Source of the DNA: a virus
Length of the DNA stretch: 26,903 nucleotides
Strand: one strand, 5' to 3'
IMG/VR virus record: IMGVR_UViG_3300027833_000187
Span: 1 to 26,903 of that record
The position numbers were made by a program, and so were the translations under genes. This document shows, piece by piece, positions 14,503-23,598 of the stretch. How positions within the stretch are numbered: position 1 is the first letter of the stretch; each line of letters opens with the position of its first letter. The notes below the pieces were generated by a model that ran no database searches, was not told the origin of the DNA, and saw only the letters and a list, made by a program, of their open reading frames with translations.

Positions 14503-15189
14503 TTAAGAGAATGCTCTTGTCCAAGCTGCACAGATACCTGACCTGACCACATCATCATGATTGAAGTTACAGTGGGCTGCAGGGATGTTATGTTTATGCA
14601 TTAGATCGATAGCGACCTGCAGACCTGACTGTGTACCCTTCAGATCGTGTTGGGATATGTCACCGTTCACAACGACTTTGCTATCCTCACCGATACGGGT
14701 CAGGAACATCTTCATCTCATGGACTGTCAGGTTCTGACCTTCATCCAAGATAACGAATGCATCGTTAAAGCTGCGACCACGCATCACCTCAAAGGGTACA
14801 ATCTCAATAGCACCTCGCTTGTGTGCATGTTCATACTTACCCTTACCAAGACGCTGTTGTAGCACCTCAGTGAGTGGGTAGACCCACGGTGCAATCTTGT
14901 CCTCAATAGTACCAGAGAAGAAACCAAGAGATTTACCTGCAGGGATGTTGGGCCTCGTTAGGATTATCTTATGTATCTGGTGCCTGTTGTACATGTCAGC
15001 AGCGATGGCTGCAGCTATGTAAGTCTTACCTGTTCCTGCTGGTCCTGTGACAAAGACTTGAGTGTAACGCTTTATACACTCAATGTAGTTGCGCTGGGCT
15101 GCATTCATTGGAAGTAGGGGCTGCACACGGGGACCATGTGCAACCTCTATATCCTCGACCTTCTTTTTGTACGTTGATTTCTTACGCAT
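14503..15189 (-). CDS. phoH: PhoH-like P-loop ATPase
   Basis: 228 residues, the size of the single PhoH domain. Walker A is GPAGTGKT at 49-56 and Walker B is VILDEGQN at 146-153, followed by VVNGDISQHDL at about 173-183. These match the PhoH family, related to helicase/ribonuclease-associated ATPases. The family is part of the phosphate-starvation regulon in E. coli and is very common in marine phages, where its role is not settled. It begins four bases after the RNR stop, with AGG six bases before the ATG, and is the last gene before promoter 3. The last two bases before promoter 3 end this gene. Confidence 0.93.
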   Translation of the reverse strand: MRKKSTYKKKVEDIEVAHGPRVQPLLPMNAAQRNYIECIKRYTQVFVTGPAGTGKTYIAAAIAADMYNRHQIHKIILTRPNIPAGKSLGFFSGTIEDKIAPWVYPLTEVLQQRLGKGKYEHAHKRGAIEIVPFEVMRGRSFNDAFVILDEGQNLTVHEMKMFLTRIGEDSKVVVNGDISQHDLKGTQSGLQVAIDLMHKHNIPAAHCNFNHDDVVRSGICAAWTRAFS

Positions 15190-19329: not shown

Positions 19330-19716
19330 TTAATGGTTAGATTTGATAAAGCGAGGGTCATTCTCGTAGTGTACTATTCGATGACAACAGGCGCACAGCA
19401 GCGCACACTTGTCAGCTTCAGCTAGTATCCTAGACCACTGCAGGTCTAAGTTACTTGAGTGCAGGGTGAATGATTTCTGCGTTGGGTCTATGTGATGGAA
19501 GTCATAGGCGGCAGGGTGATGCTCAGTATTACATCGCTCACACTTGCCACCTTTGTACTGGATAAGGCCCAGCTTTCTCTGCCTTCGCCTCTGCTGTTTA
19601 TCAGTGGGTATCGTACCATGTGCGTCCGACTTTGTACTCTCCATCGATGGGGATTTTAAAGTTGAAGTGTTCTCCTGCTTGTTGAAAAGATCGTACTGCT
19701 TCTCTTCCGATTTCAT
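19330..19716 (-). CDS. HNH endonuclease
   Basis: 128 residues. The C-terminal part (50-120) has the layout of a zinc-stabilised HNH nuclease: CERC (59-62), DFHHIDP (H74, H75) and CALLCACCHRIVHYE (C108, C111, H112, H116). Residues 1-45 are charged and unstructured. The ATG has AGGA eight bases upstream but lies 116 bases inside the 3' end of the DNA polymerase gene, in another frame; an internal ATG at 19644 has no ribosome site. Free-standing HNH genes next to phage DNA polymerase genes are often homing endonucleases that spread by cutting related phages. That role is inference here. Confidence 0.88.
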   Translation of the reverse strand: MKSEEKQYDLFNKQENTSTLKSPSMESTKSDAHGTIPTDKQQRRRQRKLGLIQYKGGKCERCNTEHHPAAYDFHHIDPTQKSFTLHSSNLDLQWSRILAEADKCALLCACCHRIVHYENDPRFIKSNH

Positions 19717-21379
19717 CTGCTATTTCCTGACGGGCTATTAGCTGCACCTCGTCATGGACATGAGCCACAAGAGCGTAGTCTTTGCCAAAAGCGTAGCCCT
19801 TTGTGGTTAGATTTTGATACAGGATTACTGTTGCTTTCTTAGCAAGCAGCGCACCTGCGCTCTGTAACAACATGTTGAGTGCTGAGTGGGGTGAGCGAAT
19901 GGGTAGCTGTCTGCCATCCAATCCTTTTAGGTAACCGTTTAGTTTTGCCCTAAATAAAACTCTCTCACGCAGCAGCTTGAGTGCTGGTGTAGCTTCCATA
20001 AACTTAGCGATTAACTGTCTGCCTACCTTGTCATCACCGCCAACTATAGAACCTATACGCTCCGCACCTCCACCGTAGAGGAATGCGTAGATAAATGTTT
20101 TCGATTGGTTACGTGAACTTAGACCAGCAGCCTTCTGGTTCACTGTGTGAATGTCACCATTTAAGATGACATCAGCATACGCACCACCATCATATTTCCA
20201 CATGAACTGGGCAAGACATCTTAACTCCAAGCCAGATAAATCAGCACCTACTAATGCATAGCCTTCAGGTGCATGGAACAAGGCACGGCACTCTGCACCG
20301 TATGGCGAGTTGATGCTAGGTGTCTGGCTGACGTTAGGTTTTGAATGCGTACACCTGCCAGTTGCAGCACCATTGGTGTTGACCCTGCCATGTATCTTCC
20401 CATCCTTCACCATCTTCAGCCACGCATTGTTACCTGTTGCCAGCATACCAATACGCTTGTTGATTAGCATAACCTCCGAGAGAATAACTGCTTCTGGATA
20501 GTCCAGTTTAGACAGAACACTTTCATCAACCTGTGGCTTACCGCTGGGTGTGTATAGGGTAGGAACCCAGCCGCGAACCTTCTGCAATCTATCGGCAATC
20601 TGGTCACGGGAGGCAGCATTGAACACAACGTCTTTGACCTTGTAGGTCTTGACGCCCTTCACATATCCTCTGGTCTTGTTGTTGGCCTTGGGTGTGAATG
20701 GTTCCTTAACCTGCCACGGTGGGAAAGACTTCTGCAACTCAGCTTCTAGTTCAGCATGTCTGCTTTGCAGTGTAGCCAGCAGCTTGTGTGCTGCATCCTC
20801 ATTGAAGTTAAATCCTTGGGCTTCCTGCTTCAGGATGATAGCAGCAAAGTCATGCTCTAGCTTGATACTCTCTGCTGTTGGTTTCTTAGACAGCATCAGT
20901 TTGTATAGCTGCAGGTTCAGGTGACAGTCCTGTTCACAGTAGTCCTGCATTTCTTTAGACCACTGAGCAAACTTCTCAACACTGTATTCAAAGTCACCCT
21001 TGTAGTTACCAAGCCTATGACCCCATGCCTTTAAGCTGTGACTGCCGATCAGTCTGCCCGTGACTTTCTTTTCCCTGAAGTCATCACCCTTCAAGTCCGA
21101 CCAGATCAGGCGGGACATCAGCAGGGTGTCATGTATCTCACCAGTGAACTTAAAGCCGTACAGCTTCTCAAGCTGCGGGAGGTCGTAGCCCATGATGTTG
21201 TGGCCTGTCAGGATGTCAGCCTGTGACATCATGTGAAGCCCTTCATCGATAGGCATGTAGCCTTTCTGGTTGTCAGCGCAGCTTACCTTAACGCCACTGT
21301 TCACATCAATGATAACGATGGAGTGACACACGGTTGCATCAAGACCATCAGTCTCAATGTCGAACAGTAGGTTAATCAT
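19601..21379 (-). CDS. Family A DNA polymerase with 3'-5' exonuclease (gp5-like)
   Basis: 592 residues (T7 gp5: 704). Proofreading motifs: LLFDIETDG (D7, E9), LTGHNIMGYDLPQL (D66) and YCEQDC (D151). Polymerase motifs: A in GADLSGLELR (D380), B in RNQSKTFIYAFLYGGG (R423, K427, Y431, Y435) and C in VHDEVQ (H542, D543). Tyr431 corresponds to E. coli Pol I F762 and T7 Y526, the state common in virulent phages. Between FPPW (219-222) and VVFN (251-254) there are only 28 residues, where T7 has its thioredoxin-binding segment. The ATG overlaps the transporter stop as ATGA. Followed by the overlapping HNH gene. Confidence 0.96.
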   Translation of the reverse strand: MINLLFDIETDGLDATVCHSIVIIDVNSGVKVSCADNQKGYMPIDEGLHMMSQADILTGHNIMGYDLPQLEKLYGFKFTGEIHDTLLMSRLIWSDLKGDDFREKKVTGRLIGSHSLKAWGHRLGNYKGDFEYSVEKFAQWSKEMQDYCEQDCHLNLQLYKLMLSKKPTAESIKLEHDFAAIILKQEAQGFNFNEDAAHKLLATLQSRHAELEAELQKSFPPWQVKEPFTPKANNKTRGYVKGVKTYKVKDVVFNAASRDQIADRLQKVRGWVPTLYTPSGKPQVDESVLSKLDYPEAVILSEVMLINKRIGMLATGNNAWLKMVKDGKIHGRVNTNGAATGRCTHSKPNVSQTPSINSPYGAECRALFHAPEGYALVGADLSGLELRCLAQFMWKYDGGAYADVILNGDIHTVNQKAAGLSSRNQSKTFIYAFLYGGGAERIGSIVGGDDKVGRQLIAKFMEATPALKLLRERVLFRAKLNGYLKGLDGRQLPIRSPHSALNMLLQSAGALLAKKATVILYQNLTTKGYAFGKDYALVAHVHDEVQLIARQEIADEIGREAVRSFQQAGEHFNFKIPIDGEYKVGRTWYDTH

Positions 21380-21385
21380 GGTACT
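21366..21385. repeat. 20-bp direct repeat, copy at the polymerase start
   Basis: The minus strand reads AGTACCATGATTAACCTACT. It matches the copy at 21797-21816 at 17 of 20 positions, 431 bp apart. Both copies sit over a CCATGA stop/start overlap in the same phase, one at each edge of the transporter gene. Confidence 0.75.
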
Positions 21386-21810
21386 ATTCTCCCAACAAAC
21401 TTAGATATGTGATTGACAAACGGCAGTAGACTAGCAGCCATCAAAAGGTTCACGCCTGTATGGACTAGAGCGATACGAAGTGTGTCACCTTTTGGCATTC
21501 CATCAGAGACTAACAATCCTGCCAGCCAGATGGTCCCTGTTGTACCAATGTTAGCACCTAAGACACATGCAATTGCTGCAGGTAAAGGTACTGCACCAGA
21601 TGCAACTAGCGCGATGATGGCAGTGGTAGATAGAGAACTACTCTGCCATGCCAAGGTCATAACAATGCCACCAAAGAACATGTAAATTGGGTTAGCTATG
21701 AACCACTGTAGGTGGTCGATGTTACCCATAGATTTCATGCCACCTGAAAACATTTTAAGACCAATGTAAAAGATGACTAGACCAACACTAATCTGTACTA
21801 GATTAATCAT
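21376..21810 (-). CDS. Half-length Na+/phosphate cotransporter-like membrane protein (NptA/PF02690 type)
   Basis: 144 residues from the chosen ATG; an upstream in-frame start at 21900 would run antisense of nothing but through the preceding small gene and is rejected. It carries one repeat unit of the Na/Pi-cotransporter family: GGMKSMG (23-29), the QSSSLSTTA motif (56-64), LGANIGTTGT (84-93) and a final ALVHTGVNLLMAASLLPF helix (114-131). About four to five membrane segments are visible (4-22, 41-55, 60-74, 78-100, 111-131). Full transporters have two such repeats, so this might act as a dimer, pair with a host half or modify phosphate uptake. It overlaps the 55-aa gene (ATGA) upstream and the polymerase (ATGA) downstream. 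AAAGG lies nine bases before the ATG. Confidence 0.85.
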   Translation of the reverse strand: MINLVQISVGLVIFYIGLKMFSGGMKSMGNIDHLQWFIANPIYMFFGGIVMTLAWQSSSLSTTAIIALVASGAVPLPAAIACVLGANIGTTGTIWLAGLLVSDGMPKGDTLRIALVHTGVNLLMAASLLPFVNHISKFVGRIVP

Positions 21811-21816
21811 GGTGCT
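21797..21816. repeat. 20-bp direct repeat, copy at the transporter start
   Basis: The minus strand reads AGCACCATGATTAATCTAGT, partner of the copy at 21366-21385. The repeat includes the last codons of the 55-aa gene and the first codons of the transporter; together the two copies bracket the transporter exactly. Confidence 0.75.
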
Positions 21817-21974
21817 GTACCTTTCCAGAGTTTTAGCTGTGCCTTCAGCTTGCCGTTGCGGATGACTAGAAGTTTTGCTTCGCTTTCCCAGTAGTCGCAT
21901 TCACGTTGCTGGGTCTTGATGTACTCTTCCAGTTCGGCACACTTCTCGTGCCAGTACTTATCTTTAAAAGTCAT
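21807..21974 (-). CDS. Small helical, charged protein of unknown function (55 aa)
   Basis: A 55-codon frame filling the space between primase-helicase and the transporter. It begins MTFKDKYWHEKCAELEEYI and continues as one Glu/Lys-rich helix with heptad-like Leu/Tyr/Trp spacing, ending LKLWKGTAP; a coiled coil is likely. The ATG lies 11 bases inside the primase-helicase gene, with GAGG nine bases upstream (within the acidic tail codons). Its TGA overlaps the transporter ATG as ATGA. No family recognised. Position between helicase and polymerase suggests a replication accessory role, but that is only inference. Confidence 0.72.
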   Translation of the reverse strand: MTFKDKYWHEKCAELEEYIKTQQRECDYWESEAKLLVIRNGKLKAQLKLWKGTAP

Positions 21975-23598
21975 CCTGTTCTTCCTCTACTTCAAAGACA
22001 CTAGCTTGTGTCACTTCAGTCATCCTGCCTGTGTCGATGTTGTAGTTAAGCAAGCATCCGATACCCGTCTCACCGCTGAACCTGTTCTTCAGGACACGCA
22101 CGGTAGATTGGTTGGGGTTGTCACCCTGCTGGTCACGCTCAACCGACAGACACATGTCTGATAGCTGGGCGATACTTGCAGAGCCACGCAGGGAATTGAG
22201 TGTAACCTCAAGGCCATTCTCCCAGCCACGTTCACCAGATGGGCGGCGTAGGTGGGACACAAGGATAAGGCCAATGCCTGTCTCTTCACACAATGACCGT
22301 AGCTTGGTCATTACAACGTCGATGTTCTTTCGTTCATCACCGTCATCGATACCACTGACCACGATAGATAGGTGGTCAAGTATCACATAAGATACTCCAC
22401 AACCTTTGGCTAAGTAGCGTACTTTGTTAAGTAAGTTGTCTGTCTCTAGCGACCCAAAGTGGTCATAAAGATATACGCTACCGCTGCCAACTGTAAGATC
22501 AAAAGCAGATCGTAAGTCATCGTCTGATACTCCTTCTTTCGTGAGGTGTAATGGCTTGTCTAAAGCCAACCCCATGAGGCCAAGGGCGGTGCGCTTCACG
22601 TTCTCTTCTAGCGCAATGTAGCCAATAGATTGGCCTTGGTTGATAAGGTGGTATGCAATCTCTTTGCACACCTGCGATTTACCTACGCCACTGCCAGCAC
22701 AGATGGTCACCAGTTCACCTCGACGTATGCCGTGTGTCTTGATGTTCAGCGATTGGAATGGGTAGGGAATAGACGGGGTGTCAGCATCTATAGATACGTC
22801 ATCCCATAGGTCTGTACCTGCAAGGATACCATCAGGTCGATGGACCTTCGCTTGCCACATGGCATCGATCAGTTCTTTGGTGCGCCCAGCCACCAGCATT
22901 TCGTTGGGGTCTTTGAGTGGCAGGGTGGCGATGGCAGCTTTGCTTGGGGTTAGCAGTTCAGCAATCTCTACGCTTGCCGCACGGCCTACATCATCGTTGT
23001 CCAGCATGATAATCACACGGTCAAAACTCTCAACGAATTCAAGTGAGTTTTGCACCGCACGTTTAGCACCCTGACAACCGTTGGGAACTGACACCACAGG
23101 GAAGCGATTGCCCTGTGCTTGGCTCATAGAACAGGCATCAATTTCACCCTCTACAATCACCAACATTTTAGCGTTGCCAGCAGACCAGAGGTGCTGCCCG
23201 TACAGGCCAGCAGCCTTGGTGTCACCTAAGAACTTGAAGCCCTTGTCAGCGAAGCGCAGCTTCTGTGCTACCACCTGACCTGAGTTGTTGCGGTAGTTAG
23301 CAACATGACAGGGCTGACCGTTGTACTCACCAATGTTATAACCAAATTTCTTGCAGGTTTCTTCAGTCAGCTTGCGCCGTGGCAGAGCCTGTGGTTCGCC
23401 AATGGCGATAAGATTAGTCTGCATTTTTTGAGATACCTTTCGGACAGGTGCGGTGGAACTGTCACGGGATGACTTATTCACCCCGCAACTGAAGCAGTGA
23501 CTGCCATTGCTGTAGACCCCCAGTGCATCTGAAGAACCACAGTCAGGGCAGCTTTCATGGCCGAAGAATTCAGCCTCTTGCGAGTTTATATTCTGCAT
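21964..23598 (-). CDS. Primase-helicase (gp4-like)
   Basis: 544 residues (T7 gp4: 566). N-terminal primase: zinc site CPDC and CFSC (C17, C20, C35, C38), TOPRIM residues E150 in VIVEGEIDA and D200/D202 in MLDNDDVGR. C-terminal DnaB/RecA-type helicase: Walker A GSGVGKS (302-308), EEN at 331-333, Walker B VILDH (D408), H449 in VSHLRRPSGE and the arginine-finger-like KNRFSGETG at 504-512. The acidic tail EEEQDDF ends in Phe, as in T7, where this residue contacts the polymerase. So the full-length bifunctional form is present. Start ATG has GGGG about five bases upstream and overlaps the HTH gene by 29 bases. Confidence 0.96.
   Translation of the reverse strand: MQNINSQEAEFFGHESCPDCGSSDALGVYSNGSHCFSCGVNKSSRDSSTAPVRKVSQKMQTNLIAIGEPQALPRRKLTEETCKKFGYNIGEYNGQPCHVANYRNNSGQVVAQKLRFADKGFKFLGDTKAAGLYGQHLWSAGNAKMLVIVEGEIDACSMSQAQGNRFPVVSVPNGCQGAKRAVQNSLEFVESFDRVIIMLDNDDVGRAASVEIAELLTPSKAAIATLPLKDPNEMLVAGRTKELIDAMWQAKVHRPDGILAGTDLWDDVSIDADTPSIPYPFQSLNIKTHGIRRGELVTICAGSGVGKSQVCKEIAYHLINQGQSIGYIALEENVKRTALGLMGLALDKPLHLTKEGVSDDDLRSAFDLTVGSGSVYLYDHFGSLETDNLLNKVRYLAKGCGVSYVILDHLSIVVSGIDDGDERKNIDVVMTKLRSLCEETGIGLILVSHLRRPSGERGWENGLEVTLNSLRGSASIAQLSDMCLSVERDQQGDNPNQSTVRVLKNRFSGETGIGCLLNYNIDTGRMTEVTQASVFEVEEEQDDF

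Follow-up and report, generated by a model that had tools for sequence, protein, structure and literature searches.

A Na/Pi cotransporter gene bracketed by direct repeats, present in some and absent from other genomes of a genus of T7-like phages

The stretch of DNA analysed here, called the window throughout, is a 26,903-bp virus record of a marine phage in which genes for a helicase-primase, a protein of 55 aa (orf55), a Na+/Pi cotransporter (NaPi) and a DNA polymerase follow one another in that order on the minus strand. The helicase-primase (21964..23598, minus strand) is T7 gp4-like and includes Helic-prim_T7_N, DnaB_C and Toprim matches (PHROG 239), and the polymerase (19601..21379, minus strand) is a T7-like family A enzyme (Pfam DNA_pol_A, E 7.1e-41; PHROG 17). 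Between these, orf55 (21807..21974, minus strand) encodes a small, probably coiled-coil protein ending LWKGTAP, for which nothing was found in PHROGs or NCBIfam and no relative in INPHARED, and NaPi (21376..21810, minus strand) encodes 144 aa and has ATGA stop/start overlaps at both ends. A NaPi ORF of 174 aa was rejected because its start lies upstream, inside orf55. An HNH endonuclease ORF (19330-19716) shares 116 bp with the 3' end of the polymerase gene, and one relative (L203) carries a 54-bp insertion near window position 19598. Genes for an exonuclease and an SSB, assigned from gene order and the annotation of isolates, belong to the same module as NaPi, and a phoH-like gene, a second gene of this NaPi-bearing phage often tied to phosphate stress, is at 14503-15189. 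The nearest isolates are the Autographiviridae roseophages CRP-114, CRP-125, CRP-361 and CRP-113 (nucleotide identity ~67-69 %), described previously together with their phoH, mazG and RNR genes (PMC11092137). They share with the window the order helicase-primase, polymerase, HNH, thyX and exonuclease but, unlike it, all four isolates inspected lack both orf55 and NaPi.

The protein named as a transporter in the initial annotation matches Pfam PF02690 (Na_Pi_cotrans) with E 2.8e-16 and 60.2 bits against a cut-off of 29.1. WQSSS is invariant in the 28 aligned members and includes QSSS, which we take to be the signature of the Na_Pi_cotrans family. However, a full-length Na/Pi symporter has two repeats and ~300 aa, and NaPi, with one repeat in 144 aa, matches either half of the profiles NF037997 and TIGR00704, scoring 43.1 bits (cut-off 50) and 50.9 bits (cut-off 210.1), respectively. 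A sequence search found SLC34A2a chains at 1.5e-15. We make no claim about the fold because the AlphaFold2 model, built from 28 sequences, has a mean pLDDT of 64.8 and its PDB matches, none at E<=0.001, are not meaningful. The single-repeat form is highly conserved across unrelated phages (L001-L080) and may need to act as a dimer, and membership of the family points to phosphate uptake as the probable function.

NaPi relatives are encoded by at least 585 IMG/VR stretches, and the best 80 of these are 81-100 % identical to NaPi, though the polymerases of many of these 80 carriers are just 22-30 % like that of the window. In unrelated carriers thyX is often adjacent, and the polymerase of one carrier is closest to that of roseophage CRP-6. 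No relative above 60 % was found in INPHARED and NaPi was not found among the PLSDB plasmids. In 84,980 species genomes, searched with exact peptide words that distant homologues can escape, the best match was 74 %, in one MAG contig, and the next 37 %; thus, no close cellular homologue was found in that set. The contig concerned, assigned to Chloroflexi (PAAV01000031.1), is possibly a phage contig binned there. Given the spread in IMG/VR, the lack of a close cellular homologue and the presence of carriers among HMO-2011-type phages, NaPi is best called a phage gene family. Hence, the earlier description of the gene as host-derived is not supported by these comparisons, and any host origin would be distant.

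Two near-identical sequences lie over the ends of NaPi. The upstream copy, AGCACCATGATTAATCTAGT (21797..21816, minus strand), covers the ATGA overlap of the orf55 stop and the NaPi start, and the downstream copy, AGTACCATGATTAACCTACT (21366..21385, minus strand), covers that of the NaPi stop and the polymerase start. The two are identical at 17 of 20 positions, are spaced 431 bp apart and lie over the overlaps in the same phase; their longest exact common stretch is ACCATGATTAA (11 bp). A repeat search of the window returned 18-nt copies that are 89 % identical (16/18), also spaced by 431. The left half of the upstream copy corresponds to the conserved tail of orf55, which is present in unrelated phages too, and the right half of the downstream copy to the polymerase start (MINLL). 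When in-register 20-mers over the 30 gene starts in the window were compared (435 pairs), this pair scored 17/20 and the next best 13/20. No other 20-mer in the window, on either strand, matched the polymerase-side copy at more than 14/20, and 400 random 20-mers yielded no same-strand match of 17/20 within 1 kb. The repeats around NaPi noted in the initial annotation are, therefore, confirmed as real.

Contigs from the same genus as the window were recovered via the polymerase, the helicase and a degenerate polymerase-start pattern, and the ten obtained, together with the window, gave 11 genomes, most of them fragments. NaPi is present in eight of the 11 and absent from 3300006191_001250 (L085/L138/L203), 3300047353_000210 (L087/L137/L200) and 3300025138_004825 (L136/L091), which come from three metagenomes, all other than that of the window. 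The distance from the helicase stop to the polymerase start is 584 nt in genomes with NaPi and 153 nt in those without, a difference of exactly 431 bp, and when the window was aligned to the three empty genomes over 5.6-11 kb the 431-bp gap was the only one of 55 bp or more. In the empty genomes orf55 is intact, and at the joint with the polymerase gene GGAAAGGTACAGCAC is followed by C or A and then directly by ATGATTAACCTACTG, so that a single repeat copy is left, with the polymerase start and the ATGA overlap kept. Natural empty alleles of the repeat-bracketed gene thus exist, in three genomes and with exact junctions. It had been predicted that removal of 431 bp would join the 55-aa gene to the polymerase gene with the same coupling and that some relatives might have a single repeat copy and lack the transporter, and the three empty genomes match this to the base.

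As the empty joints are in metagenome contigs and the breakpoint lies at a repeat, they could be errors in which the repeat was collapsed during assembly. However, the empty joint is seen in three orf55 haplotypes from three metagenomes, and an assembly error was rejected on this basis. In addition, the longest exact repeat (11-12 bp) is shorter than the k-mers usually used in assembly, and isolates outside the genus also lack NaPi, making this explanation barely credible. A second possibility is that NaPi entered as a transposon or homing-type element and that the repeats are its target-site duplication, which would fit with two near-identical flanks of 18-20 bp around a gene that is missing elsewhere. 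However, the 431 bp encode NaPi only, with no ORF for a transposase, integrase or endonuclease, and include no terminal inverted repeats, and the HNH ORF is ~1.7 kb away, past the polymerase gene, and is also found in the isolates that are free of NaPi. As element genes are missing, this origin was also rejected, and we consider it very improbable.

The 11 genomes fall into three orf55 types that share ~97-98 % identity or more within a type and 79-92 % between types, and each type has members with and without NaPi. Type 1 includes the window, L001, L003 and L135 with the gene and L136 (97 % to the window) without it, type 2 includes L002 with and L085 without, and type 3 includes L004-L006 with and L087 without. 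The orf55 of each empty allele is ~98 % identical to that of some genome bearing NaPi. Hence, either NaPi was gained or lost on at least three occasions, or its presence and absence were exchanged by recombination. Individual switches cannot be polarised as gain or loss.

The joint in L136 combines an orf55 of the window type with the variant CACA/ATGA, otherwise seen at the NaPi/polymerase joint of L005 and L006, and at positions 47, 59 and 60 of its polymerase gene L136 has the SNPs of the L004-L006/L087 type. Judged from these positions, the empty junction of L136 is likely to be a crossover hybrid of two alleles that contained NaPi, though a point mutation could also account for the A in place of C. 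Over 431 nt NaPi is 100 % identical in the window, L001, L002, L003 and L135, though the divergence of L002 from the window is 3.3 % for the helicase, 8 % for orf55 and 6.7 % for the early part of the polymerase gene. In pairwise alignments, the tract spanning NaPi was the longest identical one: 573 nt with L201 (next 314; 11.9 kb aligned), 573 nt with L204 (next 278) and 519 nt with L002 (next 142). The 573-nt tract that the window shares with L201 and L204 covers 21308..21882. This pattern suggests that one NaPi allele spread recently by recombination, although mosaicism is general in these genomes.

These findings also bear on the possibility that allelic exchange is all that occurs, with old presence and absence alleles shuffled by homologous recombination in the flanks (orf55, helicase and polymerase) and the repeats now idle. 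The genomes of this genus are generally mosaic, the genome nearest to L136 differing from block to block, and the long identical tracts take in the 3' end of orf55 and the 5' end of the polymerase gene beyond NaPi, both of which are in its favour. Indeed, the long homologous flanks could have been the route of most switches, and the repeats may have served a single time or not at all. However, exchange of existing alleles leaves unexplained both the original event, which was exact to the base over a repeat matching at 17/20, and the hybrid CACA sequence at the L136 joint. We therefore give this explanation a substantial chance of being correct, somewhat short of even.

The origin of the repeats was also considered. 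Most relatives carry ACAACTATG where the start of NaPi reads TTAAYCTA; at the other end of the gene, CACC or TACC corresponds to GTAGG or GTCAA in relatives. Each repeat copy, in the half for which it has no need, is similar to the joint at which orf55 meets the polymerase gene in the empty genomes. Because these unneeded halves match, the repeat may be a duplicate of the original orf55/polymerase joint, made when NaPi entered. Independent similarity, by inheritance plus chance, is also possible, as the NaPi proteins of L010 and L013 start MTNLVQ, one residue from MINLVQ. In the NaPi tree no lineage was resolved as sister to the window's clade. A related view is that the repeat is only a by-product of translational and codon constraints (the ATGA overlap, starts encoding MINL and the spacing of the ribosome site), with selection keeping those deletions that are gene-precise. 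ATGA overlaps are common in the window, MINLVQ may be plain inheritance given the MTNLVQ starts, and the orf55 tails of unrelated phages already end ACAGCACC. However, no other pair among the 30 gene starts exceeds 13/20, and the copies match in their unneeded halves too, CACC before the polymerase gene and TTAAYCTA in NaPi, in which they differ from most other NaPi genes. We therefore view this explanation as unlikely, though well short of negligible.

The reading that we prefer, and consider likely to be correct, is that the region separating the helicase-primase gene from the polymerase gene in these T7-like roseophages is a translation-coupled gene slot, in which near-identical copies of the joint allow precise loss or gain of NaPi by recombination. 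The 3' end of each gene would hold the ribosome-binding site of the next together with the ATGA stop/start overlap. The 3' end of orf55 carries a Shine-Dalgarno-like GGAAAGG, and in its last bases, read directly as TGGAAAGGTACAGCACC followed by ATGA, an AAGG resembling a ribosome-binding site precedes the ATG by 9 nt. At a similar spacing, GGGAG is present in the end of NaPi, GTTGGGAGAATAGTACC followed by ATGA. Removal of NaPi therefore replaces one coupling site with another. With NaPi (431 bp from repeat to repeat) bracketed by the two copies, annealing or homologous recombination between them would delete the gene and rejoin orf55 to the polymerase gene with the coupling intact, and the most likely agent would be the phage's own T7-type exonuclease/SSB annealing machinery. 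NaPi could be regained by recombination with a genome that carries it, either in the joint or in orf55 and the polymerase start, and phosphate supply would be the benefit that retains it in some genomes. The use of the repeats as substrate, and the step and direction in which they acted, we infer from the sequences. As the exact common core is just 11-12 bp, recombination rates could be low.

Homologues of orf55, 33-89 aa long, lie immediately 5' of NaPi in unrelated phages, and of 37 variable sites in orf55, counted by hand, 22 are at third codon positions. A scan of IMG/VR for TGGAAAGGNACAGCACMRTGA returned 77 contigs, and nearly all of these and the window have a small orf55-like ORF ending LWKGTAP upstream, though the scan cannot separate protein from DNA conservation because the pattern fixed the DNA. 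The gene that follows the LWKGTAP/ATGA joint is NaPi in 39 (by BLAST) plus one in which it is truncated, and the polymerase gene in three, the empty genomes. In all, the joint precedes at least seven different genes, including NaPi, the polymerase gene and at least five small genes: those for MIQRLLDWIEKKL (51 aa), MSDEVKAAAQ (66-69 aa) and RQHIYDTW (105 aa), a 34-aa membrane-like protein and a 54-aa gene. The earlier suggestion that another gene might occupy the slot is thus borne out, but outside the genus, in unrelated phages. The 51-aa protein (MIQRLLDWIEKKLDNRDTPDYFRGNPSLEE...) follows the joint in ~17 contigs, including L208, L213, L223, L226, L231, L254 and L265. In L007 (NaPi at 568) and L047 (NaPi at 2352), compared with the otherwise similar phages L043, L046 and L035, the 34-aa gene is inserted precisely where the LWKGTAP joint meets NaPi. 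When L014 (after 689) and L029 (after 3828) are compared, a segment of ~95 bp with an ATGA joint at each end separates NaPi from thyX in one of them and is missing from the other.

When NaPi loci of unrelated phages were compared in pairs, indels of 60 bp or more clustered at the two joints that flank NaPi, usually leaving 2-18 nt of overlapping sequence; indels inside NaPi are invisible in this comparison because NaPi was the bait. Such clustering does not prove a sequence-directed process, since selection alone keeps breakpoints at gene boundaries. We tentatively propose, as a possibility rather less probable than not, that the LWKGTAP-ending family provides a shared docking joint, its conserved 3' end serving as protein tail, as ribosome-binding site for the following gene and as recombination homology, into which unrelated marine phages plug accessory genes at one translation-coupled slot. 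If so, the genes that can be swapped would include a phosphate transporter, small proteins of unknown function and even a DNA polymerase.

Overall, the comparisons support the proposed clean gain or loss of the repeat-bracketed NaPi, for which the exact empty alleles are the main evidence. One qualification is that NaPi is not in every case the whole of the mobile unit, since unrelated phages have orf55-like genes alongside it and the nearest isolates have neither. The means by which accessory metabolic genes enter and leave the packed essential operons of lytic phages are usually unclear, and at the NaPi slot a metabolic gene can come and go without damage to its essential neighbours. As a single genus offers the full and the empty allele together with the joint sequence and a probable crossover hybrid, the process is directly testable. 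That unrelated marine phages use the same coupled joint repeatedly points to a general route by which accessory genes may be swapped with the translation of the neighbours undisturbed, and joints of the LWKGTAP/ATGA type are a simple sequence pattern with which other swappable genes might be found.

The replication and recombination enzymes of T7 type can delete DNA between direct repeats of 10-20 bp. That process was seen in laboratory constructs, whereas the alleles described here are natural and preserve translational coupling. Modular shuffling at the PeSLs of T4-type phages was reportedly described by Arbiol et al. in 2010 and Comeau et al. in 2014, both cited in PMC4503421. PeSLs are promoter/stem-loop elements between genes and, like the joint in the window, are short repeats proposed to let accessory genes be exchanged; unlike PeSLs, the joint lies within overlapping coding sequence and includes a ribosome-binding site. 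A PF02690 Na/Pi cotransporter gene is also found in HMO-2011-type marine phages, in eight subgroup I genomes, where it was proposed to raise phosphate uptake by the host (PMC9038755). The window phage is T7-like, not HMO-2011-type, and the orf55 partner, the repeat joints and the presence/absence alleles are features of the window group that the available part of PMC9038755 does not describe. The NaPi slot is an unusually clear, new case of the modular gene exchange already known in phages.
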